A DNA stretch of 37,055 nt from Verrucomicrobiaceae bacterium (GTDB lineage Bacteria > Verrucomicrobiota > Verrucomicrobiia > Verrucomicrobiales > Akkermansiaceae), in contig SYAP01000088.1 of the NCBI GenBank assembly GCA_005787565.1, positions 1 to 37,055 on the forward strand, in the 5' to 3' direction. Position 1 is the stretch's first letter. The number at the start of each line of letters is the position of its first letter. The notes under the pieces were generated by a model. That model ran no database searches, was not told the origin of the DNA, and was given only the letters and a program-made list of their open reading frames with translations. The translations under genes were made by a program, and so were the position numbers. This document shows, one piece after another, positions 4,701 to 36,893 of the stretch.

Positions 4701-5858
4701 ATGAAATCCCGCCGCGCCTGCCTTGCCATCTTCGCCGCCACCACCGCCACCACCCTCGCAAACGGCTTCTACATCCCCGTCCAATCCCCGGAAGCTACCG
4801 GCCGCGGAAACGCTTGGCTCGCCACCGCGGACACCGCCTCCGCCGTCTACTACAACGCCGCAGGCCTCACCCAACTCCAAAACAGCGAAGTCGTCATCGG
4901 CGCATACGGCATCCACCTCGGCCTCGAAGCCGACACCCCCTTCGGCGATTTCGAAGCCAACAACTCATGGGCCTACGTCCCGCAAATCTACATGGCCGTC
5001 CCCGTCAACGAAAACCTCGTCGCCGGATTCGGTCTCAACACTCCCTTCGGCCTCGCCACCGATTGGGGCAGCAACACCCCCTTCCAATTCCTTGCCGACC
5101 GCACCGAGTTGAAATATCTAACCGGATGGATGGTCCTCGGCTACAAACTCACAGACACCTTCTCCATCGGAGGCGGCTTCGGCATCCACCACGCCGATGC
5201 ATTCTTCACCAAAACCCCAGCCTTCGCCACCGACTTCTCACAGTTCGAAGGCGATGACCAAAGCCTCAGCTGGACCCTCTCCGCCCGCTGGGAACCCTGC
5301 GCCGAACACGCCTTCGGCATCGTCTACCGCAGCCGCACCAACTTCGATCTCAAAGGCGATGCCGAGACCCCGTTCGGCGAAGAGCGCGCCAAACTCGACT
5401 TCCTCACCCCTGCCACCGCCGCCATCGGCTACGCTTGGCGACCCAACGAAAAATGGTCCTTCGAAGTCAATGTCGAGTGGGTCAACTGGGAGGAAATGGA
5501 CACCCTCACTCTCGAAAAAAACACCGGTGACCAAGGCATCCCCTTCGAGTGGAACTCAAACTTCATCTACTCCGTCGGCCTCACCCGGAACCTCGAAAAC
5601 GGCTGGCACGTCAGCGCGGGATACAACTACATCGGTAACAGCCAACCCAACGAAAACTTCAACCCAGGCATCTCCGACGCCAACCGCCACTGGATCAGCG
5701 TCGGCGTCGGCCGCTCCTACGGCGATATCGAATGGGATTTCGCCTACCAATACGCCTTCTCCGATCGTGAAGTCTCCGGTTCACCCTTCGGCATCGCGGA
5801 TGGCGATTATGAATCCCGCTTTCACGGGCTCATGCTGAATTGCCGCTGGAACTACTGA
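4701..5858 (+). CDS. OmpP1/FadL/TodX family outer membrane transport protein
   Basis: Signal peptide, then NGFYIPVQSPEATGRGNAWLATADTASAVYYNAAGLTQL and beta-barrel pattern; ends in aromatic residue. Confidence 0.88.
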   Translation: MKSRRACLAIFAATTATTLANGFYIPVQSPEATGRGNAWLATADTASAVYYNAAGLTQLQNSEVVIGAYGIHLGLEADTPFGDFEANNSWAYVPQIYMAVPVNENLVAGFGLNTPFGLATDWGSNTPFQFLADRTELKYLTGWMVLGYKLTDTFSIGGGFGIHHADAFFTKTPAFATDFSQFEGDDQSLSWTLSARWEPCAEHAFGIVYRSRTNFDLKGDAETPFGEERAKLDFLTPATAAIGYAWRPNEKWSFEVNVEWVNWEEMDTLTLEKNTGDQGIPFEWNSNFIYSVGLTRNLENGWHVSAGYNYIGNSQPNENFNPGISDANRHWISVGVGRSYGDIEWDFAYQYAFSDREVSGSPFGIADGDYESRFHGLMLNCRWNY

Positions 5859-5862
5859 CCCG

Positions 5863-7698
5863 TTAGAACGGCCAGATCATCGGAATCAGCAGGCACGAAA
5901 CGATCCAACAGATGAAATTCAGCGGGATCCCCACCCGCAGGAAATCGGAAAACCGGTAACCGCCCGGACCATAAATCATCATGTGCGTCTGATACCCCAT
6001 CGGCAACGCAAACGCCGCCGAGGCCGCCACCGCCACGCCCATCACGAACGGCCGCGAACTCACATCCAGCTCGTTGGCCATCTTCACCACGATCGGCACC
6101 ATCATCACCGCCGTAGCATTGTTCGATAAAACTTCCGTTAGACACAAGGTCAGCAAAAACACCAGCCACAGCAGCACCAACGGCAGATACTCCGGCGAAA
6201 TCAGCCGCTCGGCCCCGCTCACCAACCCTCGCGCAAGATACTCAGCCGTCCCCGTATTCTGCATCGCCATTCCCAGACCTAACAAACCGTAAAGCATCAG
6301 CAAAACCTGCCAGTCGATGCTCGCATACGCCTCTCGCGGCGTCACAATCCCCAGCCACAACAAAGCCAACGCCCCGACCAACGCCGCATAATGGATCGGC
6401 ACCGCCGAAATCGATGGAAACTGCCGGCTCAATAAATCGCTGACCGTCGCCGTCAACACCACCCCGATCAACGCCGACCACGCCAACACCCGGTGCCGGT
6501 TCGGCCGCTTCGGCGCATCCTCCGCACGCGGCTCCTCATCTGGAGTGTCCGTTAGAATGAAATCCCGCGTCCGCTCCAGCGGTTCCAAATTGTTCAACGC
6601 CGTGATCACCAGCAGTGTATCCCCCGCCTCTAACGGAAGCTCGGCGATCCGGCTCGTGATGTTGATCCCGTTGCGATGAACCGCCAGCACCACGCAGTTA
6701 TATCGCTGCCGGAAATCCGATGCCGCCAGCGTCCGCCCGTGCAACGTCGACTCATCCCGAATCACCAGCTCGGACACAATCCCATCCACCGTCGAAAGCG
6801 ACTCCGCACCAATCCGCTCGAACAACTCCTCTGGCTTCGCACCACCACCCCGCCGCCGGTGAATCGCAATCAGAAACCGGTCGTTCTTCTCCACCTTGAT
6901 CCGCGACAACGGCACCATCACCCGCGCACCCTTCCGCCGGACCTCCATCACGTGGATCCCGGACTCCCGGTCCATCAGCGGCGTTTCCGTCAGCATCTGC
7001 CCGATCAACGGCGAATTCCCCACAATCAGCAAATGATGCAACGGCGACGTCCGGTAATCGATCTCCAAACTCCCCGTGATCGATGACCGCGACGGCATCA
7101 GCTTGGGACCGAAAACCACCAAATACACAATCCCCGCAATCGCCAAAGGCACCCCCAGCGGCGCAAGCTCAAACATCGTCATCGGCTTCTCACCCAGCTC
7201 CTTCAGCGACCCGTTCACCAACAAATTCGTCGACGTCCCGATCAACGTGCAGCACCCACCCAGAATCGACGCATACGACAACGGCATCAGCAACTTCGAC
7301 GCCGCAATGTCCTTCGACCGCGCGAATCCCAACGTCACCGGCAGCAAAATCGCCACGATCGCCGTGTTGTTCATCCACGCGCTGAAAAACGCCGCCACCC
7401 CTGCAAACGCGAAAATCGCCGTCCGCAAATTCCCCGAAAGCCGCGCCTTCAACAACTTCCCGATGTGATCCACCGCCCCCGAACTCTCCAACGCCCCACC
7501 AATCACAAACAACGCCGCAATCGTCAGCGGCGCCTCATTCTTGAACACCAGCGTCATCTCGCTCGGACTCACCAACCCCAACGCCACCACCAAACAAAGA
7601 ATGCTCAATGCCAACACATCAGGTGCCGCCCACTCTCGGATGAAAGCGACCAAAGTGATGACGATGACCAACAAGGTCAGGGCAATCGGAAGTGTCAT
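5863..7698 (-). CDS. SLC13 family permease with central TrkA-C (RCK_C) domains
   Basis: MTLPIALTLLVIVITLVAFIREWAAPDVLALSILCLVVALGLVSPSE; WMNNTAIVAILLPV; YASILGGCCTLIGTSTNLLV; SNNATAVMMVPIV; two RCK_C-like stretches in the middle. Confidence 0.88.
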   Translation of the reverse strand: MTLPIALTLLVIVITLVAFIREWAAPDVLALSILCLVVALGLVSPSEMTLVFKNEAPLTIAALFVIGGALESSGAVDHIGKLLKARLSGNLRTAIFAFAGVAAFFSAWMNNTAIVAILLPVTLGFARSKDIAASKLLMPLSYASILGGCCTLIGTSTNLLVNGSLKELGEKPMTMFELAPLGVPLAIAGIVYLVVFGPKLMPSRSSITGSLEIDYRTSPLHHLLIVGNSPLIGQMLTETPLMDRESGIHVMEVRRKGARVMVPLSRIKVEKNDRFLIAIHRRRGGGAKPEELFERIGAESLSTVDGIVSELVIRDESTLHGRTLAASDFRQRYNCVVLAVHRNGINITSRIAELPLEAGDTLLVITALNNLEPLERTRDFILTDTPDEEPRAEDAPKRPNRHRVLAWSALIGVVLTATVSDLLSRQFPSISAVPIHYAALVGALALLWLGIVTPREAYASIDWQVLLMLYGLLGLGMAMQNTGTAEYLARGLVSGAERLISPEYLPLVLLWLVFLLTLCLTEVLSNNATAVMMVPIVVKMANELDVSSRPFVMGVAVAASAAFALPMGYQTHMMIYGPGGYRFSDFLRVGIPLNFICWIVSCLLIPMIWPF

Positions 7699-7811
7699 GT
7701 GGCTTTTCCCCCCGTGGGGTGAGCCTCTCTGACGAAGAACCACCCGCTTGGCAAGGCCAGGGTGCACCGATTTCCTTCATCCCGGCTTGCCCCAACACCC
7801 CTCCATACCCG

Positions 7812-8477
7812 ATGCTCAAAACCGTGAACCGCCCGTGGATCTCGATCAACCTCGCCATCTCCGCCGACGGTCGGATCGCACAAAACCCAGGCTCACCTTC
7901 CGGCTGGACCTCCCCCGTAGACCACTGCCGCCTCCTCGATCTCCGCCGCGGCATCGACGCCCTCCTCGTCGGCCGCGCCACCCTGGAAGCCGATCGCATG
8001 ACCCTCACCGTCCCCGATCAGGAAATCCAACCCCTCCGCTGCATCGCCTCCCGCTCCGGAATCCTCGATCCCCAGCACCCCATCTTCTCCCGCCCCGGCG
8101 GCCCCATCCACCTCCTCTCGGAAAAACCGGATCCCAAAATCCCCACCCCACCCTCCGTCATCCCCCACCACGGAAATCTCGCCCATTTTCTCGAAAACCT
8201 CACCGCCCATCACTCCGTCCGCAGCCTCCACTGCGAGGGCGGCGGCCAACTCATCCGCAGCCTCGCCGAACTCGACGCCATCGACGAAATCCACCTGACC
8301 TTCGCCGGCCACACCCTCTTCGGCGGCCCGCAACCCGTCACCGCCACCGGCCCCCTCGGCGATTTCCTCGGAAAATCCACCCACCTCCAACTCACACAAT
8401 TCGCCCCTAACAGCGAAACCGCAGAGTGCTATCTCACCTATCGCCGCACCCATACCGGGCGCGATTCCACTCAGTGA
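7812..8477 (+). CDS. RibD C-terminal-like pyrimidine reductase / dihydrofolate reductase family protein
   Basis: RPWISINLAISADGRIA, RRGIDALLVGRATLEADRMTLTV, LHCEGGGQLIRSLAELDAIDEIHLTFAGHTLFGG; RibD_C signature. Confidence 0.82.
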   Translation: MLKTVNRPWISINLAISADGRIAQNPGSPSGWTSPVDHCRLLDLRRGIDALLVGRATLEADRMTLTVPDQEIQPLRCIASRSGILDPQHPIFSRPGGPIHLLSEKPDPKIPTPPSVIPHHGNLAHFLENLTAHHSVRSLHCEGGGQLIRSLAELDAIDEIHLTFAGHTLFGGPQPVTATGPLGDFLGKSTHLQLTQFAPNSETAECYLTYRRTHTGRDSTQ

Positions 8478-24281: not shown

Positions 24282-27200
24282 TTGGAGCCAACCACTACCG
24301 ATACCCAACCCAAACAACCGCGCAAATCGCGGCGGCGCTTGCGGCGTGTCGGATGCTTCCTCGCCATCCTCTTCCTCGGTGCCCTTTGGCTCAACGGCCC
24401 CGGCCTCCGCTGGCTCGCCCCCAAAATCGCCAAACCCTTCCTCGCCAAAGCCGGCCTCTCCGGCTCCTTCAGCCTCGAAGGATCCCTCACCGGCGGCCTC
24501 TCCATCCACGACCTCTCACTCTCAGGAAACGCGGAAATCCAACACCTCTCCATCCACCGCGCCACCCCTGACTACCGCCTCAGCGAACTCATAAACGGAA
24601 AACTCCGCGGCCTCGATGCCCATGGCATCCATCTAACCATCCGCCTGTTGGAAAAACCCGACGAGGAATCCAAACCTCCCGACCTCTCGAAGATCTTCGA
24701 AACCGTCCGCTCCATCCGCCAACACGCCATCCCTCTCGACCTCCGAGTCGCAGACCTCCAGCTCACCATCCTCCGCGACGAATCCACCGTCTTCTCCCTC
24801 GGAAAATCCACCCTCACCCACCAGCCCGATAATCCGGCCATCACCCTCGACATCGGCCCCATCTCAGCCATCGAAACCCTCGAACTCGAACCCCAGAAAA
24901 CCCTCATCACCTGGCAGGAAAACCAACTCTCCCTAAACCGAATCGAACCCTGGCCCAAAGTCACCCTCCAGAACCTCGACCTCGATCTATCAGAAACCTC
25001 ACCCGGCCAAATCTCCGCCGAACTCGGCCTGCTCGACGCCATCTTCGATCTCGAAACCACCTCAAACCTCCAGTCCGCCACCCTCCGCCTCCGCGAAGGC
25101 CTCCTCGACCTCCCCGAAGTCGCAAAAACCTTCGGCTTCGAAATCCCGGCCAAAGCTCAACTCACCTCATTCTCCCTCGAAATCGACGACATCCTCCCCT
25201 CCCCACTCCTCGCCACCGGCGAAATCCAAACAGTCCTCGAATCCGTCACCTGCCAGGACTGGTCCGTCGACGAACTCATCATCGGCACAAACCTCGGAAC
25301 CGACACCGGAAAAATCGCACTCCGCACCGTCCTCCACGATGCCCCGATCACCCTCGACTCCACCATCAACCTCATCCGCACCGAACTCACCATCACCCCC
25401 ATCGATGCCACCGGCACCTTCCGCAGCGAAAACCTCCCCGCCCTCATCCGCGGCCTCGCCTCCCGCTTCCCAACCCTCGACCCCAACGCCACCCTCCCCG
25501 CCTCATCCCTCCTCAGCGAATTCTCCGTCGCCTTCGAGGACTCGAAACCAAGCATCGCCACCGCATCCCTCTCCATCACCCCCGAGGAACGCACCGCCGC
25601 CAGCTCCATCGAAATCTCCGCCGATTGGATACCAAATACCCCAATCACCGCCGCACTCAACGTCGACGGCCTCATTCTAACAGGCTCATACGACCCCGAT
25701 CCCCAAACCTACTCCGCAGACCTCAAAACCATCGGCTTCCGCAGCCCGCGCATCGCCCCATGGCTCGCCGCCGCCCGCATCATCCCTCCCGGCGACCTCA
25801 CCCTGACCGCCAGCGCCAAGGCCTCCGGAAATCTGAAATCCGCCACCCACACCGGCACCACCAACATCGAATCCGCCGAATGGATCAAGCCCGATCAACT
25901 TCCCCTCCGCGCCACCGGCAGCCTCTCCCACGACTGGCCCGGCCGCGTCCAGGCCTCCAACCTCCTCATCCAGCGCGCCGATCAATCCATCCGCCTCCAG
26001 GCTCTCCTCGCTGACAACCGCCTCGAACTAACAGAACTCCTCTGGCTCAACGGCGAAACCGAAATGGCCACCGCCGATGCCACCATCCCCGTCCCCGAGG
26101 ACTTCTCCAAATGGCCCGAAATGATCTCCAAAGACACCCGCCCCTTCACCCTATCCATCGAAACCCGCGAACTCTCCTTCGCAACCCTCGACCCCTGGCT
26201 CCCTCCCTCCGCAAAACTCGATCCCTCCGCCAAAGGAAAACTCTCCATCCAAGCCAGCGGCTCATTCGCAGACCCCAAAATTCAAGCCACCCTCGAAACC
26301 CGAAACCTCCGCTCACCCAGCGCCCCACAACTCCCACCCGCCGATCTCAAACTCCAGCTCAAATCCAACGCCGGAACCCTCACCCTCAACGGCGAAGCCA
26401 CCGCCCCGGACTTCGCCCCCGCCATCTTCCTCGCCACCATCCCATTCCGCCCCTCCGCATGGGCGGAAAACCCCGACGCTTTCCTCAAGCAACCCCTATC
26501 AGTAAAACTCGACCTCCCGCGCCTCGACCTCTCACGCTTCACCGCCCTCGTCCCCACACTCCGCGAACTCAAAGGCACCCTCATCTCCAACGCCACCGTC
26601 ACCGGCACCCCCGCCAAACCGGAAATCCTCGGAAAAATCTCCCTCGAAGGCGGCGCGATCACCTTCAACAACTCATCCGTCCCCGCCATCAAGGAAATCA
26701 CCGCGAACATCGAAGCCACACTCGCCTCAATCAAACTCAAACAACTCTCCGCCACCTCCTCCGGCGGAACCTTAAACGCATCCGGCACTCTAACACTCGA
26801 TCGCGGGAAACCCGCAAACATCGACCTCCAGCTCACCGGCGACCACCTCCCCGCCATCCGCAACGAATCCCTCATCGTCCGCACCAATGCCAACCTCCGC
26901 CTAACAGGGACCTGGCAGCAAGCCACCCTCAACGGAACCGTCGGCCTCGTCGACAGCATCTTCTATCGCGATATCGAACTCCTACCCATCGGCGCTCCGT
27001 TCAATGCCCCTTCCGCCGCATCACTCCCCCGCATCGATGTCACGCCCACCACAACCGCCCTTCCCGCACCTTTCGGCTCCTGGAAAATCAACGTCACCGC
27101 CACCACCGAAGAACCGTTCCTCATTCGCGGCAACCTCGCCGCCGGACAAGTCAACGCTGCCCTCCGCATCGGCGGCACCTTCGACAAACCCCTCCCGGAT

Positions 27201-27731
27201 GGCACCGTCCGCGTCGAAGACTTCCGCGCCGCACTCCCATTCAGCACCCTGACCGCACGCTCAGGCACCCTCGTCTTCACCCCCGCAAACGGCTGGGACC
27301 CCGTCATCGAAGCCCGCGCAAAAGCCGAACCCCGCCCCTACCGCGTCGATGCCTACGTCTACGGCCGCCTCTCAAGTCCTCAACTCGTTCTCACCTCCAA
27401 CCCGCCCATGCCGGAGAACGAAATCATGACCCTCCTCGCCACCGGCACCACCACCACCCAACTCGAAAATCCGCAAGCCGCCTCATCCCGCGCCCTCCAA
27501 CTGTTAGCCGAGGAAGTCCGCCGCGGCCGCGTCAGATTCAGCCGCCAGCTCAGACCTCTGTTAGGGCTGTTGGACAACGTCGACTTCAGCCTCGCGGAAA
27601 CCGATCCATATGACGGCGATTCCTATTCCACCGCCACCCTCTCCATCACCGACCGCTGGTTTCTCTCCGCCGGTATGGGAACCGCCGGAGACACCCGCGT
27701 CCTCGCCATCTGGCGCATCTCCTTCCGCTGA
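24282..27731 (+). CDS. tamB: TamB-like translocation/assembly module (AsmA/DUF490), TTG start inferred
   Basis: 1149 aa; N-terminal TM anchor, long beta-rich region, C-terminal [124 protein letters not shown]. Confidence 0.9.
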   Translation: MEPTTTDTQPKQPRKSRRRLRRVGCFLAILFLGALWLNGPGLRWLAPKIAKPFLAKAGLSGSFSLEGSLTGGLSIHDLSLSGNAEIQHLSIHRATPDYRLSELINGKLRGLDAHGIHLTIRLLEKPDEESKPPDLSKIFETVRSIRQHAIPLDLRVADLQLTILRDESTVFSLGKSTLTHQPDNPAITLDIGPISAIETLELEPQKTLITWQENQLSLNRIEPWPKVTLQNLDLDLSETSPGQISAELGLLDAIFDLETTSNLQSATLRLREGLLDLPEVAKTFGFEIPAKAQLTSFSLEIDDILPSPLLATGEIQTVLESVTCQDWSVDELIIGTNLGTDTGKIALRTVLHDAPITLDSTINLIRTELTITPIDATGTFRSENLPALIRGLASRFPTLDPNATLPASSLLSEFSVAFEDSKPSIATASLSITPEERTAASSIEISADWIPNTPITAALNVDGLILTGSYDPDPQTYSADLKTIGFRSPRIAPWLAAARIIPPGDLTLTASAKASGNLKSATHTGTTNIESAEWIKPDQLPLRATGSLSHDWPGRVQASNLLIQRADQSIRLQALLADNRLELTELLWLNGETEMATADATIPVPEDFSKWPEMISKDTRPFTLSIETRELSFATLDPWLPPSAKLDPSAKGKLSIQASGSFADPKIQATLETRNLRSPSAPQLPPADLKLQLKSNAGTLTLNGEATAPDFAPAIFLATIPFRPSAWAENPDAFLKQPLSVKLDLPRLDLSRFTALVPTLRELKGTLISNATVTGTPAKPEILGKISLEGGAITFNNSSVPAIKEITANIEATLASIKLKQLSATSSGGTLNASGTLTLDRGKPANIDLQLTGDHLPAIRNESLIVRTNANLRLTGTWQQATLNGTVGLVDSIFYRDIELLPIGAPFNAPSAASLPRIDVTPTTTALPAPFGSWKINVTATTEEPFLIRGNLAAGQVNAALRIGGTFDKPLPDGTVRVEDFRAALPFSTLTARSGTLVFTPANGWDPVIEARAKAEPRPYRVDAYVYGRLSSPQLVLTSNPPMPENEIMTLLATGTTTTQLENPQAASSRALQLLAEEVRRGRVRFSRQLRPLLGLLDNVDFSLAETDPYDGDSYSTATLSITDRWFLSAGMGTAGDTRVLAIWRISFR

Positions 27732-29725
27732 TGATCTTCTTCCGAATGCTCCTCTGCCTCCTCCTCACCGCCCTCCCCGCGGCGGCGGAAACTCGGATCC
27801 GCATCCTAGGACTCAAAGGTCAATCCGAAACCCATGCCCTCAGCCTGTTAGGAAAACGCCTCGAACACGTCAGAACCGACAAACCCTCCGCCTCCCGCGC
27901 CGATGATGCCGCGTTCCTCCTCACCCAACTCCTCCGCAAGGACGGATACTCGTCCGCCGAAGTGGATTGGAAACTGCCCGGCGGTGACAACATCGACCTC
28001 ATCGTCCGCGAAGGCCCGCGCGTTTCGTTAGGCACCGTCACCATCACCGGCGCCAATTCATCGGACACCAAACGCTTCGCCCGCCTCTTCGCCACCCCGG
28101 CCGAGAAAGATCGCCCCTTCGGCCTTGGCCTCCCACCCTTCCGCGAAGACGATGTCCCGAAAGGCCTCGCCTTCCTCGTCCAAGACATGCACGCTCAAGG
28201 ATACTGGCAGGCCACTGCGGTGGAAAGCAACCGACGCCAACATCCCAAAACCGGACACGTCGATATCGACATCACCGTCAACCCAGGCCCCCTCTTCACC
28301 ATCGCCCGTTCCACCGTCTCCAGCACCGACGGCCGTGGCGTAAAACGCGTCGCAACCACCGCAGACCCCTACATCGGCCGCACCGCCAACACCGCCCAAC
28401 TCAACTCGCTCCGACTCGAAGTCGAACAGGCATTCTTCAGCCGTGGCTACCCGGATGCCAAAATCCAGATGAGCCGCACCCTCCAAGGCGATCAATTCAA
28501 CCCGCACTTCTCCATCGACCTCGGAACCCGCGTCCGCCTCCGCTCCATCGAAATCGAAGGCCTCCAACGCACCAACAAGGACCGCGTCATGCGCCTCTTC
28601 AAAAACACCCAGGGCGAATGGTACGACGAAGCCGCGATGAACAAACGCACCAGCCAGCTTCTCGCCACTGGTGCCTTCTCATCTGTTAGGATAGAAACCG
28701 AGGAGGTCGCCCCAAAACGCATCGATGCCACACTCCGCCTCAAGGAATCCCGCGCCCGCGAACTCTCCGTCGCCGCCGGCACCGGTTCCTATGAAGGCTT
28801 CATCTCCCGCTTCACCTACACCGACCGCAATCTCTACGGACAGCTGTTAGGCTTCTCCGCCGGACTCGAATTCACCTCCCGAGGCGTCCTCGGCGAAGCC
28901 CGGCTGACCGACCCATGGTTCACCGGCCGCGATCTCGCCTCCACCACCCGCCTCTTCTCCCTCATCAAGGAACACGAAGGTTACAGCATCTTCCGCACCG
29001 GACTCGAAACCTCACTCATCTGGCCCGGATACAAAAACTACAACCTCGAACTCCTCGCGGGCCTCGCCGTCATCAACACCACCGAAAAAGGCCTCACCCG
29101 CCAGGAACTCGGCGAGTCCGTCTACAACCACACCTACCTGCGCCTCACCCAAGGCTTCGACTACCGCGACAGCCCCGTCATCCCCAAACACGGCTGGCAC
29201 ATCAAATCCCCAATCGAAGTCGGAATGGCCATCGGCGACGACTCAACCTCCTACTTCAAAATGGGACTCCAAGGCGGATGGTACAAACAACTCGGTCAAA
29301 ACCATCATCTATCAGCTGGCGGCCAGTTCGGCCTCATGATGCCCTCCGGCGATAGTCAGGACCTACCCATCGACCTGCGCTACTTCAACGGTGGAGCCCG
29401 CAGCGTCAGAAGCTTCGCCGAACGCGAACTCGGCCCCGAAGGCATCGACGGCGACCCAATCGGCGGCGAAGCCTACTGGGCCGCCAACCTCCAACTCATG
29501 CGCGACATCGCCGCCCCCCTCCAACTCATCGGTTTCCTCGATGCCGGTTCCCTCGCCAGAAACTACGACGATCTCGGCGCAGCCGACCTCGAAATGGCCA
29601 TCGGCCTCGGCCTCCGGCTCGAACTCCCCATCGGCCCCATCCGCCTCGAATACGGCCACAGCCTCACCCGCGATTCCGGCGAACCCAGCGGCGCACTCCA
29701 CTTCGCCATCGGCAGCACCTTCTAA
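27731..29725 (+). CDS. tamA: BamA/TamA family outer membrane assembly protein
   Basis: Signal peptide, POTRA-like repeats (IRILGLKGQSE..., VTITGAN..., IEIEGLQRTNKDRVMRLF) and beta-barrel ending LRLELPIGPIRLEYGHSLTRDSGEPSGALHFAIGSTF; TGATG overlap with tamB. Confidence 0.9.
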   Translation: MIFFRMLLCLLLTALPAAAETRIRILGLKGQSETHALSLLGKRLEHVRTDKPSASRADDAAFLLTQLLRKDGYSSAEVDWKLPGGDNIDLIVREGPRVSLGTVTITGANSSDTKRFARLFATPAEKDRPFGLGLPPFREDDVPKGLAFLVQDMHAQGYWQATAVESNRRQHPKTGHVDIDITVNPGPLFTIARSTVSSTDGRGVKRVATTADPYIGRTANTAQLNSLRLEVEQAFFSRGYPDAKIQMSRTLQGDQFNPHFSIDLGTRVRLRSIEIEGLQRTNKDRVMRLFKNTQGEWYDEAAMNKRTSQLLATGAFSSVRIETEEVAPKRIDATLRLKESRARELSVAAGTGSYEGFISRFTYTDRNLYGQLLGFSAGLEFTSRGVLGEARLTDPWFTGRDLASTTRLFSLIKEHEGYSIFRTGLETSLIWPGYKNYNLELLAGLAVINTTEKGLTRQELGESVYNHTYLRLTQGFDYRDSPVIPKHGWHIKSPIEVGMAIGDDSTSYFKMGLQGGWYKQLGQNHHLSAGGQFGLMMPSGDSQDLPIDLRYFNGGARSVRSFAERELGPEGIDGDPIGGEAYWAANLQLMRDIAAPLQLIGFLDAGSLARNYDDLGAADLEMAIGLGLRLELPIGPIRLEYGHSLTRDSGEPSGALHFAIGSTF

Positions 29726-29735
29726 CAAATAAGAT

Positions 29736-30614
29736 TCACCGGTTCCTCTTCCGCAGCGAAACCGCCCACACCAACACCAGCAACACCGCCCCGCAAATCA
29801 CCACCGAGGCCCCCAGATTGCATCCCGCCCACGTCGCGATGACCATCCCCCCGATCGAGGAAATCACCGCATGCCCCGCCACCGCGCCCAAAATCGCAGG
29901 CACCCGCCGACACATCAGCAAACCGCTCGCCGCTGGCAAAACCAACAACGCCACCGACATCACCGCACCCACCGTCTGAAAGGCCGCCACCACCACTAAC
30001 GCCGTCACTCCTAACAAAATCGACTCCGTCCGCCTCGGCGCCTGACCCGTCAGCGCCGCCAACGACGGATCAAACGATCCCACCAGCAACCGGTGATAGA
30101 TCAACCCCACCATCGCCCACCCCAACACCGCCGCCCCACCCGTCACCAGCACGATCTGCGGCACATCCAGCCCGAACACCCCCACCCGCGCCCCATGGAT
30201 CGCTGTCTCCAGATTGCCGAACAACACGCAATCCGGATCCAGATCCACCTTCCCCGCATACAACCGCAACAGCACCACGCCGATCGCGAACATCGCCGTG
30301 AAAACAATCCCCGTCGCCGCATCCTCTCGCACGCTCCCGCTCCGGTGCAACCAACCGATCACCATCACCGTCAACCACCCCGAAAGCGCCGCCCCGCCCA
30401 AAATCCACGGCGAATCCAAAGTCCCTGAAATCAGAAACCCGATCACAATCCCCGGCAACACGCTGTGACTGATCGCATCTCCCGCTAGAGACATCCGCCT
30501 CACCACCAGGAAAGTCCCCGGCACCCCGCACGCCATCACGGTAAAGGCCGATGCCAACATCAGCCACAAACTCGTCGGCGACTGCAACAGATCCTGCCAA
30601 ATCTCCCAATTCAC
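29736..30614 (-). CDS. Mn/Zn ABC transporter permease (ABC-3 family)
   Basis: GVPGTFLVVRRMSLAGDAISHSVLPGIVIGFLI, DPDCVLFGNLE, QTVGAVMSVALLVLPAASGLLM; ABC-3 permease pattern. Confidence 0.92.
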   Translation of the reverse strand: MNWEIWQDLLQSPTSLWLMLASAFTVMACGVPGTFLVVRRMSLAGDAISHSVLPGIVIGFLISGTLDSPWILGGAALSGWLTVMVIGWLHRSGSVREDAATGIVFTAMFAIGVVLLRLYAGKVDLDPDCVLFGNLETAIHGARVGVFGLDVPQIVLVTGGAAVLGWAMVGLIYHRLLVGSFDPSLAALTGQAPRRTESILLGVTALVVVAAFQTVGAVMSVALLVLPAASGLLMCRRVPAILGAVAGHAVISSIGGMVIATWAGCNLGASVVICGAVLLVLVWAVSLRKRNR

Positions 30615-31825
30615 TCCGCCCCCCCCGTCCCCTCCTCCGGCGGAATCGGACTGCCATGCGGATCCTTCTCAGGAAATCCAAGCTTCTCCGCCAAATCCCG
30701 CTTCTGCTCGTCATCGATCCAGTGCTCGGCACGCTCCGCCTCGTCATGCACATGATCCGGCTTGAACGCCGCTCTCTCTGTTAGATAAGTCTCCCACAAC
30801 CGGTGCGCCCTCACCAACCCCCTCGCATGGCGCTTCCCCGCTTCAGTCAACCCACCCTCCCCCACCCACTCCCGGGCCTTCAAATCCTTCATCACCCGCA
30901 CGGAAACCCCTCCCGCATCTCCACCCGCCTGCTCCGCATGCCACATCCGCTTCAGCACATCCTCCCCAGCAATCCGCCTACGCTCACGCAACACCCTCAA
31001 CCGCCTCTGCAACCACCCACCCTCGGGCCCGAACCATGCCGATACCACGAAACAAACCGTCACCGCCAACGCCATCAGCGGCCCCGTCGGCAAACCCGTC
31101 CGCACCGAAGAAATCCAAACCCCAACCATCCCTCCCAACACCGCCAACACGCACGACACCCAAACCATCCCCGACAAACTCCGGCTCCAAAACCTGGCCC
31201 CAGCCGCCGGCGTCACCAGCATCGCACTCACCAACACCACCCCAACCGCCTGCATCGCGATCACGATCACCACCGTGAGCATCAGGAAAAAACCCGCCTC
31301 CACCCACCGCACCGGAAACCCTAACAACCGCGCGAACGCAGGGTCGAACGACACCAACCGCAACACCCGGAATCCCCACGGCACCAACAACAATACCACC
31401 ACCGTCACCCAAACCAGCAACTTCAGATCCCCACCATCGATCGCCGCCACCTGCCCGAACAAAAACGCCTGCACGCCCGACGGCTGATACCGCGAAACCA
31501 TCGCGATCCCCACCGCGAAAAACACCGACAAAACCAGCGCCAACGCCGCATCCGGCTTCAACCGCGTCGTCCGCAGAATCACTTGCATCACCACACTCCC
31601 CAACCATCCCGCGACCACCGCGCACCCCAACACAACCAGCGGAGTCCGCGTCGTGCTCCACACCAACCCCGCCACCACACCCGGCAACACCGCGTGCGAC
31701 AACATGTCACCCGTCAACGCCATCCGCCGAGCCACCACAAAGGTGCCCAACACCCCGCAGGAAATCCCTAACAACAGCGCCGCCGTCAGCGCCGATCCCA
31801 CCGCGGACCCGAACCAATCGATCAC
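30611..31825 (-). CDS. Mn/Zn ABC transporter permease fused to C-terminal DtxR/MntR-like metal-binding/dimerization domain
   Basis: ABC-3 permease GVLGTFVVARRMALTGDMLSHAVLPGVVAGLV...AVGVVLVSAMLVTPAAGARF, followed by GEDVLKRMWHAEQ...LTEAGKRHARGLVRAHRLWETYLTERAAFKPDHVHDEAERAEHWIDDEQKRDLAEKLGFPEKDPHGSPIP. Confidence 0.92.
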   Translation of the reverse strand: MIDWFGSAVGSALTAALLLGISCGVLGTFVVARRMALTGDMLSHAVLPGVVAGLVWSTTRTPLVVLGCAVVAGWLGSVVMQVILRTTRLKPDAALALVLSVFFAVGIAMVSRYQPSGVQAFLFGQVAAIDGGDLKLLVWVTVVVLLLVPWGFRVLRLVSFDPAFARLLGFPVRWVEAGFFLMLTVVIVIAMQAVGVVLVSAMLVTPAAGARFWSRSLSGMVWVSCVLAVLGGMVGVWISSVRTGLPTGPLMALAVTVCFVVSAWFGPEGGWLQRRLRVLRERRRIAGEDVLKRMWHAEQAGGDAGGVSVRVMKDLKAREWVGEGGLTEAGKRHARGLVRAHRLWETYLTERAAFKPDHVHDEAERAEHWIDDEQKRDLAEKLGFPEKDPHGSPIPPEEGTGGAE

Positions 31826-32601
31826 GGCAAACCACCTCCGCTTCCACGCGCCACCCGCCGCGCCACATCACTCAACAGCGTCAGCTTCCCTCCATACGTC
31901 TTCTCCAGAATCTCCGGCTGGAAAACCTCCTCCACCGTCCCGTGCGCCACCACCCGCAGATTCAAAAGCAACAACCTCTCGAAATACCTCGGCGCGGATT
32001 GCAGATCATGATGCACCACCAGCACCGTCCGCCCCTCATCCCGCAGCTTCCCTAACAAACCGATGATCGCCCGCTCCGTCGCCGCATCCACCCCCGCGAA
32101 CGGCTCATCCATCAGATAGATCTCCGCCTTCTGCGCCAGCGCCCGCGCGATGAACGTCCGCTGCTGCTGCCCGCCACTCAGCTCGCCGATCTTACGCGTC
32201 GCCAGATCCACCATCCCCGTCTGCTCCAATGCCTCCATCGCCCGCGCCCGCTCCGCCTTCCCCGGCCTGCCGAACCACCCCAGCCCCGCATAGGTCCCCA
32301 TCAGCGCCACATCAAACACCGTCACCGGAAAATCCCAATCCACCGACTCCCGCTGCGGCACATAACCAATCCTCCCCAGCACCTCACCCAACGGCTTTCC
32401 TAACAGCTTCACCCACCCCGAATCCGGCTGGATCACTCCCATCACCGCCTTCAGCAACGTCGACTTCCCCGCCCCGTTGGGCCCCATGATCCCCGTCAAT
32501 GTCCCGGGCGGCACCTCGATGTCCACCCCATGCAACACCGGCTTCCCTCGATAGGAAACGGACAACTCATGGGTTTCCAGTGCGGGCACATTCATCGGCA
32601 A
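31822..32601 (-). CDS. Mn/Zn ABC transporter ATP-binding protein
   Basis: Walker A GPNGAGKSTLLKAVMG, RIGYVPQRESVDWDFPVTVFDVALMG, LSGGQQQRTFIARALAQKAEIYLMDEPFAGVDAATE; typical of Mn/Zn ABC-3 ATPases. Confidence 0.93.
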   Translation of the reverse strand: MPMNVPALETHELSVSYRGKPVLHGVDIEVPPGTLTGIMGPNGAGKSTLLKAVMGVIQPDSGWVKLLGKPLGEVLGRIGYVPQRESVDWDFPVTVFDVALMGTYAGLGWFGRPGKAERARAMEALEQTGMVDLATRKIGELSGGQQQRTFIARALAQKAEIYLMDEPFAGVDAATERAIIGLLGKLRDEGRTVLVVHHDLQSAPRYFERLLLLNLRVVAHGTVEEVFQPEILEKTYGGKLTLLSDVARRVARGSGGGLP

Positions 32602-32608
32602 GTGTTTG

Positions 32609-33385
32609 TTAGAATCGGAACGTCACCCCTTGGGCGATCGAGAAGTCCGGCGCATCATCATTCAGACCAACCCCACACGCAAGATCCCATCGGAGATTCC
32701 GCCCCACCATCCACGTCACTCCGGAAAACACCGATGCCTCATACCTCGACTCCCCAAAAACCCCGGCATACTCGATGAAAACTCCGAGATCATTCCCCAG
32801 ATCCCTCCCTAACACCACCGTGTGCGTGCACTCCCACTCGTGTCCATCATCCCCTCGCACCCGCGCCAACTCCACCTGAAATCCCAAATCCATCGATTCA
32901 CTCAAACCGATCGCCACCGGAAACACCACCCCTCCCTCCCAATGATCCCCGCTCACCGCCGTCCCCACCGGCACCGTCACGAAAGGCATCAGCGCCCCCG
33001 CAGTATCCCCGCCATCATTCCCCCACAAATTCCACTTCAACCTCAAATCCATATCTCCAAATCCCTCAACCCCCTCCCGCAATCCGCCACCCCGCTCGAT
33101 CTCCCTCACCCAAGGACGCACCACCCACTGCAAATCCATATCTTCCGTCAGCCCCACCTTCAAATTCGATTCCCCGAAAACCCACGTCTCCATCCTCACC
33201 CCCGGCGCCGTATCACGCTCATAGCTCCACAGGCTGCTCTCGATTTGAAATCTCCCCGCCTCCACCGTATTCGGGCTCTCCGTCGCATCCGGCCGATCCG
33301 CCGAAAGCTCCCGCAGGAAATCCCCACCGCTCACCGGAGCGACCCCAACCAGCATCACAACTAACATTTTTTTCATCGCTATCAT
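32609..33385 (-). CDS. Outer-membrane beta-barrel 'transporter' (Phenol_MetA_deg-like)
   Basis: SADRPDATESPNTVEAGRFQIESSLWSYERD..., NLKVGLTEDMDLQWVVRPW, FGDMDLRLKWNLWG, beta-barrel ending in VTFRF. Confidence 0.75.
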   Translation of the reverse strand: MIAMKKMLVVMLVGVAPVSGGDFLRELSADRPDATESPNTVEAGRFQIESSLWSYERDTAPGVRMETWVFGESNLKVGLTEDMDLQWVVRPWVREIERGGGLREGVEGFGDMDLRLKWNLWGNDGGDTAGALMPFVTVPVGTAVSGDHWEGGVVFPVAIGLSESMDLGFQVELARVRGDDGHEWECTHTVVLGRDLGNDLGVFIEYAGVFGESRYEASVFSGVTWMVGRNLRWDLACGVGLNDDAPDFSIAQGVTFRF

Positions 33386-34320
33386 TTCAATCCTTCTACA
33401 ATCGCATTCACATTGTGCCGCACCATCCCGAGATAAGTGCCACGGTCAAATCTCACACCACCCGCCTCTCCCACATCTCCCGGCCTTCCCAGCGCGTCCG
33501 AATACAACGAAGACCCGGACACCCTCACCCCGGCCTCCGCCGCCACCGCCTCAATCCCCTTCGCGTTGATCGACGTCTCGGAAAACACCGTCCGCACACC
33601 CAACTCCCGCAAATACTTCACCAACTCCGCCCGATCCTTTACCCCCGCCTCAGCCGCCGTCGATACCCCCTGCAATCCCTTCACCTGAAACCCATACGCC
33701 CGCCCGAAATAGAAAAACGCATCGTGGCTTGTCACCAAAACACGCTTCTCCTCCGCCACCTTCCCCACCTCCTCACGCGCCCAACCATCCAGCTCTAACA
33801 AAGCCTTACGATACGACTCCCCGCGCTCAACATACTCCGCCTTCCCCGCCGGGTCCGCCTTCGCCAACGCATCCACCACCGGCCCCACCGCCAGCGCCCA
33901 CAACCTCGGATCTCCCCAAATATGCGGATCCTTCGTCCCCTCAAATCCCTCCTGCGGCGCAAGCAACTGCTCCGCCGGAAGCCCGTCACTCACCGCCACC
34001 ACATTCCCACCACGCTTCGCCATCGCCTCCAACGTCGACTGGAACTTACCCTCCAAATGCAACCCGCTGTAAAGCACCACGTCCGCCTTCTCTAACAAAC
34101 GCGTGTCGGCCAGCTTCGGCACATAGTTGTGAGGATCCACCCCCGGCCCCATCAGCCCCTTCACCTCCACCCGATCCCCCCCGATCTCCCTCGCCAAATC
34201 CGCCACCATCGTCGTCGTCGCCACCACCACCGGCTTCCCGCTGCCTCCCCCGGATTCCGAAGAACACCCTCCCAACCACGGCAAAGCCACCATCAAACAC
34301 AGCGTCGCAAATCGTTTCAC
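33382..34320 (-). CDS. Mn/Zn ABC transporter substrate-binding lipoprotein (TroA/ZnuA/MntC-like), GTG start inferred
   Basis: CLMVALPWLGGC lipobox; VVATTTMVADLAREIGGDRVEVKGLMGPGVDPHNYVPKLADTRLLEKADVVLYSGLHLEGK, DPHIWGDPRLWA, VLVTSHDAFFYFGRAYGF, VRTVFSETSIN; cluster A-I metal SBP signatures. Confidence 0.94.
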   Translation of the reverse strand: MKRFATLCLMVALPWLGGCSSESGGGSGKPVVVATTTMVADLAREIGGDRVEVKGLMGPGVDPHNYVPKLADTRLLEKADVVLYSGLHLEGKFQSTLEAMAKRGGNVVAVSDGLPAEQLLAPQEGFEGTKDPHIWGDPRLWALAVGPVVDALAKADPAGKAEYVERGESYRKALLELDGWAREEVGKVAEEKRVLVTSHDAFFYFGRAYGFQVKGLQGVSTAAEAGVKDRAELVKYLRELGVRTVFSETSINAKGIEAVAAEAGVRVSGSSLYSDALGRPGDVGEAGGVRFDRGTYLGMVRHNVNAIVEGLK

Positions 34321-34360
34321 GGCGCAGGCATACCCCCACCCGCTCAACCCCGCAACCGAA

Positions 34361-34382
34361 AAATTTAGCCGTGGCTAATTTT
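34361..34382 (-). promoter_or_regulatory. Palindromic operator candidate upstream of metal-uptake operon (AAATTTAGCC-GT-GGCTAATTTT)
   Basis: Near-perfect 10-bp inverted repeat (one mismatch pair) centred on GT, starting 41 nt upstream of the GTG of the substrate-binding gene. On the - strand a TATAAAAT -10-like element overlaps the distal half-site edge. Confidence 0.7.
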
Positions 34383-34954: not shown

Positions 34955-35506
34955 CTACCGCTTCGAAACAAAACCGTTCCCCTCAATATAAAACCTCAGC
35001 AACCGCTTCGCCCACACCCCCGCATAATCCACCCCCACCCGCGGCCGCTTCACGATCCGGATCCGCTCCGCCACCTCCGGCTCCGCCAAAAAACACTCAT
35101 CACCCGTCAAATCACAACCATTCATCCCCCGATCGATCCCCATCGCCCTGCTCAACAACCCCGGTCCCTGCGTCCGCCCCTCCACATTCCGAACCGGCTC
35201 CACCGCCCGCAACAACACCGCCGCGGCATGACCATCCCTCTCCGTCACCACATTCATGCAATGATACATCCCATAAATCAGATAAACATAGGCAAAACCC
35301 GGCCGACCGAACATCACCTCCGTCCGCGCCGTTCTCCCCCTCGCCGAATGCGCAGCCAAATCGTGCGGACCCAAATACGCCTCCGTCTCCACAATCCTCC
35401 CCACCCGCTCCACTCCATCCACCACCCGCACCAGCCATTTACCCAGCAACTCTTTCGCCACCACCACCGTATCCCGATCATAGAATTCCCGCGCAAGCCG
35501 CTCCAT
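34955..35506 (-). CDS. DNA-3-methyladenine glycosylase (AAG/MPG family)
   Basis: [85 protein letters not shown]; ends with TAG. Confidence 0.95.
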
Positions 35507-35552
35507 CCCCCAATCTAAATCAACCTCCCCCACCCTGTCCACCCACCACAAC

Positions 35553-36893
35553 ATGCGCGCCCTCACCCTCCTTATCTCTCTCTCCACCCTCCACGCCGCC
35601 CCATTCAGCATCCAGGTCATCGATCGCTCTAACGGCCAACCCGTCCCCATGGTCGAACTCCGCACCACCCACGACCTCCTCTTCGTCACCGACAACCACG
35701 GCCTCGCCGCCATCGACGCCCCGGAACTCCAAAACCAAGAAATCTACCTCCACCTCTCCAGCCACGGCTACGAACTCAAGCCCGACGGCTTCGGCTTCCG
35801 CGGCGTCCGCGTCACCCCGAAACCCGACGCCTCCCATCGCATCGAAATCGACCGCCTCTCCATCGCCCAACGCATCGGCCGGCTCACCGGTGCAGGCCGC
35901 TTCGCCGAAGGCGAAAAACTTGGCATCCCCGCCCCAGCCCCCGAAACCGGCGTCTTCGGCTGCGATTCCGTCCTCCTCACCCGCCACAACGACCGCCTGT
36001 TCTGGCTCTGGGGAGACACCACCCTCCCCCACTACCCCCTCGGCGTCTTCCATTCCACCGCCGCCACCACCCCGCTCAACCCAATCCCCTCCCCCAAGCC
36101 CCCGATCGCCATCCGATTCGAACTCTTCCGCGACGAAAAAGGCACCCCACGCGGCGTCTCCAACTTCCCAGGACCCGGCCCCACCTGGCTCTCCGGAATG
36201 ATCAGCATTCCCGACGCCAACCAGAAAAACCAACTCGTCGCCACCTACGCCAAAATCGAAAACTCCCTCGACACCTACCAATCCGGCCTCTGCCACTGGG
36301 ACGAAACCACCGAGTCCTTCCGCATCCACCGCACCCTCTGGAACAAAGGCGACGGCCCCCAGCCCAACCTCCCCACCGGCCATCCCCTCATCTGGAAACA
36401 ACCGGGAAAACCCGACACCCTCCTCTTCGGCGACCCCTTCCCAACCCTCTCCATGCCCGCCACCTTCGAAGCCTGGAGCGATCCCTCAACCTGGCAAAAA
36501 CTCACCCCGCCAAGAGAAATCAACACCTCCGAAGACACCACCATCACCCCCCACCGCGGCTCTATCTGCTGGCACCCACACCGCAAGAAATGGCTCACCG
36601 TCTTCACCCAACTCGACGGCAAACCCTCCCACCTCGGCGAGATCTGGTTCGCCCAAGCCGACTCCCCCCTCGGCCCCTGGTCCAAAGCCGTCAAAATCCT
36701 CAGCCACAACAACCAGACCTTCTACAACCCCCGAATTCACCCAGAACTCATCCCCGAAAACGCCAACTACCTCCTCTTCGAAGGCACCTTCACCACCACC
36801 TTCGCCGACCGTGCCATCCCCCTCCCCCGCTACAACTACAACCAAATCCTCTACCGCCTCGACCTAACCGACCCCCGCCTCCCCCACCCCTAA
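35553..36893 (+). CDS. Secreted DUF4185/five-bladed beta-propeller glycoside-hydrolase-like protein
   Basis: Signal peptide; [83 protein letters not shown]...[37 protein letters not shown]. Confidence 0.7.

Follow-up and report, generated by a model that had tools for sequence, protein, structure and literature searches.

The analysed window, a stretch of 37,055 nucleotides from a Verrucomicrobiaceae bacterium (assembly GCA_005787565.1, contig SYAP01000088.1), contains a compact operon on the minus strand. Its gene order is binding protein, PF13557 protein, ATPase, fused permease and second permease. The features are given below from the operon head onwards, with residue numbers referring to the fused protein.

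34361-34382, no strand assigned: DtxR-type operator-like box at the operon head, AAAATTAGCCACGGCTAAATTTT on the minus strand, with similar boxes in relatives
33382-34347, minus strand: substrate-binding lipoprotein (ZnuA/MntC/AztC type; PF01297, E 2e-75), with a lipoprotein-like LPWLGGC motif recognised by eye
32609-33385, minus strand: PF13557-family protein within the operon, a probable outer-membrane barrel (E 6e-17)
31822-32601, minus strand: importer ATPase (PF00005; the best NCBIfam match is of the MntA type, below cut-off), overlapping the fused gene by 4 bases
30611-31825, minus strand: fused permease and DtxR/MntR-type metal domain (YtgCR-like), 404 aa, with PF00950 and PF02742 in a single frame and no PF01325; AlphaFold model
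31031-31801, minus strand: ABC-3 permease domain, residues 9-265 (PF00950; PsaBC 7kyp by sequence and fold)
30929-31015, minus strand: continuous helix, residues 271-299, which joins the membrane domain to helix 1 of the tail (pLDDT about 93 in the AlphaFold secondary structure)
30875-30901, minus strand: remnant of the HTH recognition helix, residues 309-317, with HTH helix 2 absent (AlphaFold; comparison with L009; spacing 52 vs 70)
30641-30847, minus strand: metal-binding and dimerisation domain, residues 327-395 (PF02742; ligand positions conserved)
29736-30614, minus strand: second ABC-3 permease, without a tail (PF00950, E 2e-42), overlapping the fused gene by 4 bases

A PF00950 permease, an ATPase and a ZnuA-type binding protein are present together in this operon, which by its domain content is an ABC importer for a divalent metal. 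The NCBIfam matches of the importer are a mixture of Mn and Zn subfamilies, every one below cut-off. The imported metal is most likely Mn, with Fe or Zn possible. The true start of the binding-protein gene is probably the GTG at 34320. The PF13557-family protein could be a metal porin. A PF13557 gene is also located between the binding-protein and ATPase genes in the Verrucomicrobia operons L116, L118, L119 and L120.

The fused gene starts with GTG. The original prediction described it as one ORF holding a complete ABC-3 permease followed by a DtxR/MntR-like domain, and Pfam agrees. PF00950 matches residues 11-265 (E 7e-60) and PF02742 matches residues 327-395 (E 4e-24) of the same protein, with no match to PF01325, the DtxR DNA-binding domain, anywhere in the 404 aa. 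By sequence, the closest solved structures are PsaBC 7kyp for the permease part (2e-34) and the metal-dependent regulator 5zr4 for the tail (2e-18). In terms of fold, Foldseek also returns PsaBC 7kyp for the permease part (E 1e-14), and for the tail the Mn repressor DR2539 (8pvt, 8e-5), then IdeR and DtxR. Third-position GC is high over the whole frame (0.84 to 0.70). Equivalent fusions are found in L007, a one-contig genome of the same genus (61-63% identity), and in L008, from another genus of the family (55-58%). Since the frame is single, its GC3 is high throughout and fused homologues exist in L007 and L008, the fusion is not an assembly error or frameshift. A chance resemblance of the tail to DtxR is likewise ruled out by the Pfam, structure-sequence and fold matches. 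The original prediction had named both an assembly frameshift and a tail without similarity to the DtxR fold as ways in which it could fail, and neither is the case.

The AlphaFold model of the fused protein, built on an alignment of 26 homologues, has a mean pLDDT of 91.4 and a pTM of 0.84. Past the helix of residues 271-299, the model contains the short helix 309-317, a minimal hairpin and then the helices of the metal domain. The model of L009, a relative of normal length, keeps the strand, helix 2, helix 3 and wing. Compared with it, the window tail has neither the first strand nor HTH helix 2; it has also lost part of its recognition helix and keeps little of the wing. The helix-1 Asp and the first His ligand are separated by 52 residues in the window tail, against 70 ± 0.7 in 46 stand-alone relatives. 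The shortening had been noticed from the sequence alone and put at about a dozen residues or more; it is real but goes further, with the HTH about 18 residues short.

As for the metal site, the DtxR/MntR ligands were expected to be largely kept, and the ligand table bears this out in full. All positions are occupied (Asp289, His341, Glu345, His360, Glu364, Glu367 and His368), including Asp289 on helix 1. The Glu at the position of DtxR Cys102, which had been likened to that of Mn-selective MntR, is also present. Since this Glu occurs in fused tails and stand-alone relatives alike, by itself it does not prove Mn selectivity. There is also an extra His358, a position with His in 66 of 80 fused tails and Glu in most stand-alone relatives.

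The tail resembles the repressors MntR, DtxR, IdeR and DR2539 (8pvt, 5zr4, 1on1, 2tdx) in the fold of its dimerisation and metal domain and in its metal ligands. Unlike them, it is tethered to a permease, has no SH3/FeoA-like domain and lacks the N-terminal winged-helix DNA-binding domain in functional form. The permease part shares fold and family with the Streptococcus pneumoniae manganese importer PsaBC (7kyo, 7kyp), but PsaC ends past the membrane domain and has no sensor domain. We consider it very probable that the window protein is not a DNA reader; the earlier alternative, in which it would regulate DNA while tethered to the membrane, is unlikely.

The suspicion that such fusions already exist in databases was correct. 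The described case is the chlamydial YtgCR, whose YtgR part is reportedly set free by cleavage and then represses transcription; orthologous permease-DtxR fusions have been noted in 11 phyla (PMC6504234, PMC5599777, PMC7755916). The window protein belongs with Chlamydia trachomatis YtgCR (CT069; ytgABCD) in having a metal permease of the ABC-3 family followed by a C-terminal DtxR-like domain, in an operon with a binding protein, an ATPase and a second permease. It differs in the DNA-reading HTH, which in the window has no helix 2, and in the presence of a separate repressor, whereas for YtgR both cleavage and DNA binding are reported; the comparison with YtgCR is through the literature alone. 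By analogy, the window tail might be cut from the permease and, once soluble, repress its own operon in a metal-dependent way. Just such a permease C-terminus, encoded in ytgABCD, is the subject of the chlamydial reports (PMC6504234, PMC5599777, PMC7755916), and the operator-like box at the operon head would suit this idea, but an HTH without helix 2 and 18 residues short argues against it. The confident continuous helix of the model, in place of a flexible linker, points the same way, although it is only suggestive.

Relatives were collected by a GTDB genome scan with the tail alignment, and by searching Verrucomicrobiota and the phylum to which one planctomycete locus belongs. A single-protein pattern scan of genome contigs gave no confirmed relative. 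The first set comprises 90 fused proteins, with further ones found later, from Verrucomicrobia, Planctomycetes, Bacteroidetes, Sumerlaeota and others. Stand-alone relatives were chosen by the tail model and not by possession of an HTH; one weak match of 131 aa (L055, minus strand), with an apparently intact HTH, was excluded by hand. PF02742 is found in all 80 fused tails searched with Pfam, while PF01325 appears in only 6 of the 80, weakly and below threshold (best E 0.003), which also counts against a cleaved repressor. Both domains are present in 46 of 46 stand-alone relatives.

Per-column information places the loss of conservation mainly in the DNA-reading part of the fused tails. The same picture is seen among loci that hold both forms, with 22 fused tails compared to 22 stand-alone proteins. 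Pairwise identity in the metal and dimer region is 0.63 for fused and 0.64 for stand-alone proteins. In the recognition helix it is 0.21 against 0.46, and in the wing 0.21 against 0.48; with helix 2 included, the three elements span 0.20-0.21 in fused and 0.40-0.48 in stand-alone proteins. At Thr40 and Ser42, two DNA-contact positions of DtxR, the residues are scattered in fused tails and are Ser or Thr in nearly all stand-alone relatives. This lack of conservation is a further difficulty for the cleaved repressor. The wing charge is +1.6 in stand-alone proteins and -0.4 in fused tails, with the net charge of the whole HTH not lost. Fused tails retain a basic recognition helix, and the typical tail modelled in L009 retains the winged-helix fold, so weak or non-specific contact with nucleic acid is possible for tails other than that of the window.

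The window lineage has a short HTH on its first permease; separate cases are the second permeases of L020, L021, L025, L175, L176 and L152. The shortening therefore happened at least twice. A literature search for permease-DtxR fusions without an HTH found none among the papers covered. That most permease-DtxR tails have lost the DNA-reading residues appears to be new, with no earlier report found.

The window and L007 share 0.67 identity in the permease, 0.66 in the metal domain and 0.29 in the HTH. The pN/pS of the window HTH is 0.83 against L007 and 1.17 against L008, compared with 0.3-0.45 for the permease and metal domain. This nearly neutral drift (0.8-1.2) would be expected if the tail of this species were the decaying remains of an ancestral repressor and no longer had a role. 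However, the metal domain is constrained to the same degree as the permease, and HTH-poor tails persist in several phyla. A mere vestige is in our view very unlikely.

In terms of regulation, the box at 34361-34382 has no other close match in the window's genome. In five relatives, the binding-protein gene is closely preceded by a box of roughly the form TTAGCCTAGGCTAA, framed by AT-rich sequence. A matrix built from these six sites (window and five relatives) also gives many high-scoring sites outside the seeds, and in about 20 operons a DtxR-type box precedes the binding-protein gene. When the operon is led by a stand-alone DtxR, as in many Bacteroidetes, the box is usually upstream of the regulator gene instead. 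In another group of these operons, the TTAGCC-type box is replaced by a second palindrome, about TTTGA..TCAAA. The dyad noted in the original prediction is a real element, with comparable boxes upstream of the equivalent operon in relatives. An intrinsic terminator at this position was set aside because of the dyad's AT-rich sequence and tight loop, and because sites like it are found repeatedly at operon heads.

The second, operator-like palindrome, about TACTTTGA(N)TCAAAGTA, lies upstream of the binding-protein gene in L129, L139, L140, L141 and L144.

The window's genome contains two stand-alone regulators with an intact HTH, L001 and L003. The latter is an MntR. L044 and L128, whose boxes are similar, have MntRs next to such operons, and L003 is 56% identical to these. 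About 28 genomes with a fused tail were sampled from Verrucomicrobiota, and every one also has a stand-alone relative, in some cases short or distant. Given the boxes at operon heads and these regulators in the genome, the window operon is probably read by a regulator other than the tail. With separate intact regulators at hand, the release of the tail as a repressor becomes highly improbable for the window protein.

The same regulators allow for a different role. The tail might pair with a stand-alone MntR or DtxR through the dimer surface and hold it at the membrane, so that the state of the importer is passed on to transcription. MalK and MalT are a precedent for linking importer state to transcription. 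The metal and dimer region of the tails is as conserved as in the stand-alone proteins, which often lie in one operon with a fused tail, as this pairing would lead one to expect. Yet the sequences of tails and stand-alone partners have diverged, and the MntR type of the window's genome has no DPHG segment. We regard this trapping of a repressor as unlikely.

Alternatively, the tail may take up metal at the cytosolic exit and hand it on, as an acceptor or buffer with no regulation of transport. Such a role would fit the retained ligand positions and the extra His358, which many tails but few stand-alone proteins have. On the other hand, conservation spans the whole metal and dimer domain and not the ligands alone, and DtxR-type metal sites generally act as sensors. 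A pure buffer seems quite unlikely to us.

The reading we favour, with a probability of about 60%, is that the tail is an in-place metal sensor that regulates its own transporter, in the manner of trans-inhibition, and not a repressor. When cytosolic metal is high, the tail would bind it and dimerise or change shape. Acting through the helix that runs on unbroken from the membrane domain, it would then restrain the cycle of the permease and ATPase, and uptake would be slowed directly. In the model, helix 271-299 is a plausible mechanical link between the membrane domain and the tail. Transcription would be controlled separately, probably by the stand-alone MntR (G000 contig C162) at the box 34361-34382. 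The original prediction preferred a metal-dependent feedback gate to a conventional repressor, and this preference is supported and fits all tests, with the gating step itself being what we infer. The family-wide erosion of the HTH, the separate repressor with an intact HTH and the frequent box at the operon head strengthen the gate reading. Importers with two tails and the membrane-anchored FeoA-linked version of the module, both described further on, also favour it. Points against it are that the window importer has one tail only, since DtxR domains work as dimers, and that the homologous domain reportedly works as a repressor in Chlamydia.

A similar logic is known from other ABC importers. 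Cytosolic C-terminal domains of MetNI and ModBC sense the substrate and stall the importer (PMC10710835), and direct feedback has been described for methionine and for molybdate/tungstate. The likeness of the window tail to the MetNI C2 and ModBC domains would be one of logic, by analogy. Their domains have other folds and are carried on the ATPase, while in the window a C-terminal cytosolic domain with metal ligands, of repressor origin, is carried on the permease. Our literature search found no report of direct feedback on Mn, Fe or Zn importers of the ABC-3 family.

The usual explanation of bacterial metal uptake is transcriptional. If the tail does act as a gate, fast control by the substrate would have been made from a recycled repressor domain. 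In that event, the chlamydial case would be no model for annotating or studying the fusions of many phyla as cleavable repressors.

The number of tails differs among importers. Importers with a tail on each of their two permeases are found in several Planctomycetes and some Verrucomicrobiota (L020, L021, L025, L042, L058, L059, L107, L159, L162, L164-L166, L168-L170, L175 and L176). Loci of the Saprospiraceae type (L060-L063, L071, L083, L099 and L110) have one fused permease, with the second absent within the stretch read, and their importer may be a homodimer with two tails.

In double-tailed importers the ligand patterns often differ, with HVDRDAD..EH on one tail and DHVH..AE..EH on the other, as if to pair.

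Furthermore, Flavobacteria have a protein type with one membrane segment, a DtxR-like metal domain and one or more FeoA domains, in which PF01325 is absent or below threshold. Proteins with a membrane segment, DtxR-type metal domain and FeoA were located at:

L082, 4642-5664
L102, 4653-5705
L104, 4621-5664
L113, 4662-5702
L111, 3884-4945

In L104, a locus of the Flavobacterium family, a stand-alone DtxR comes first, then this FeoA-linked protein and, immediately after it, FeoB (5670-7861). From this gene arrangement, FeoB is a second metal importer with a putative membrane-held version of the tail module. The likeness of the window protein to FeoA-FeoB is that of small cytosolic modules associated with a metal importer, but the transporter family is different.

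A wider proposal, which we hold tentatively and at a little under even odds, is that the DtxR/MntR fold was turned from a DNA reader into a built-in importer gate across several phyla, on one permease, on both, or as a membrane-anchored subunit linked to FeoA beside FeoB. On this view the majority of permease-repressor fusions would have no repressor function, with YtgCR as an exception or another branch.

Lastly, some other genes of the window look ordinary. Just past the operon, 24282-27731 and 27731-29725 on the plus strand resemble by eye a TamB-like and TamA/BamA-like gene pair. The gene at 34955-35713 on the minus strand resembles, again by eye, a 3-methyladenine DNA glycosylase of the MPG type.
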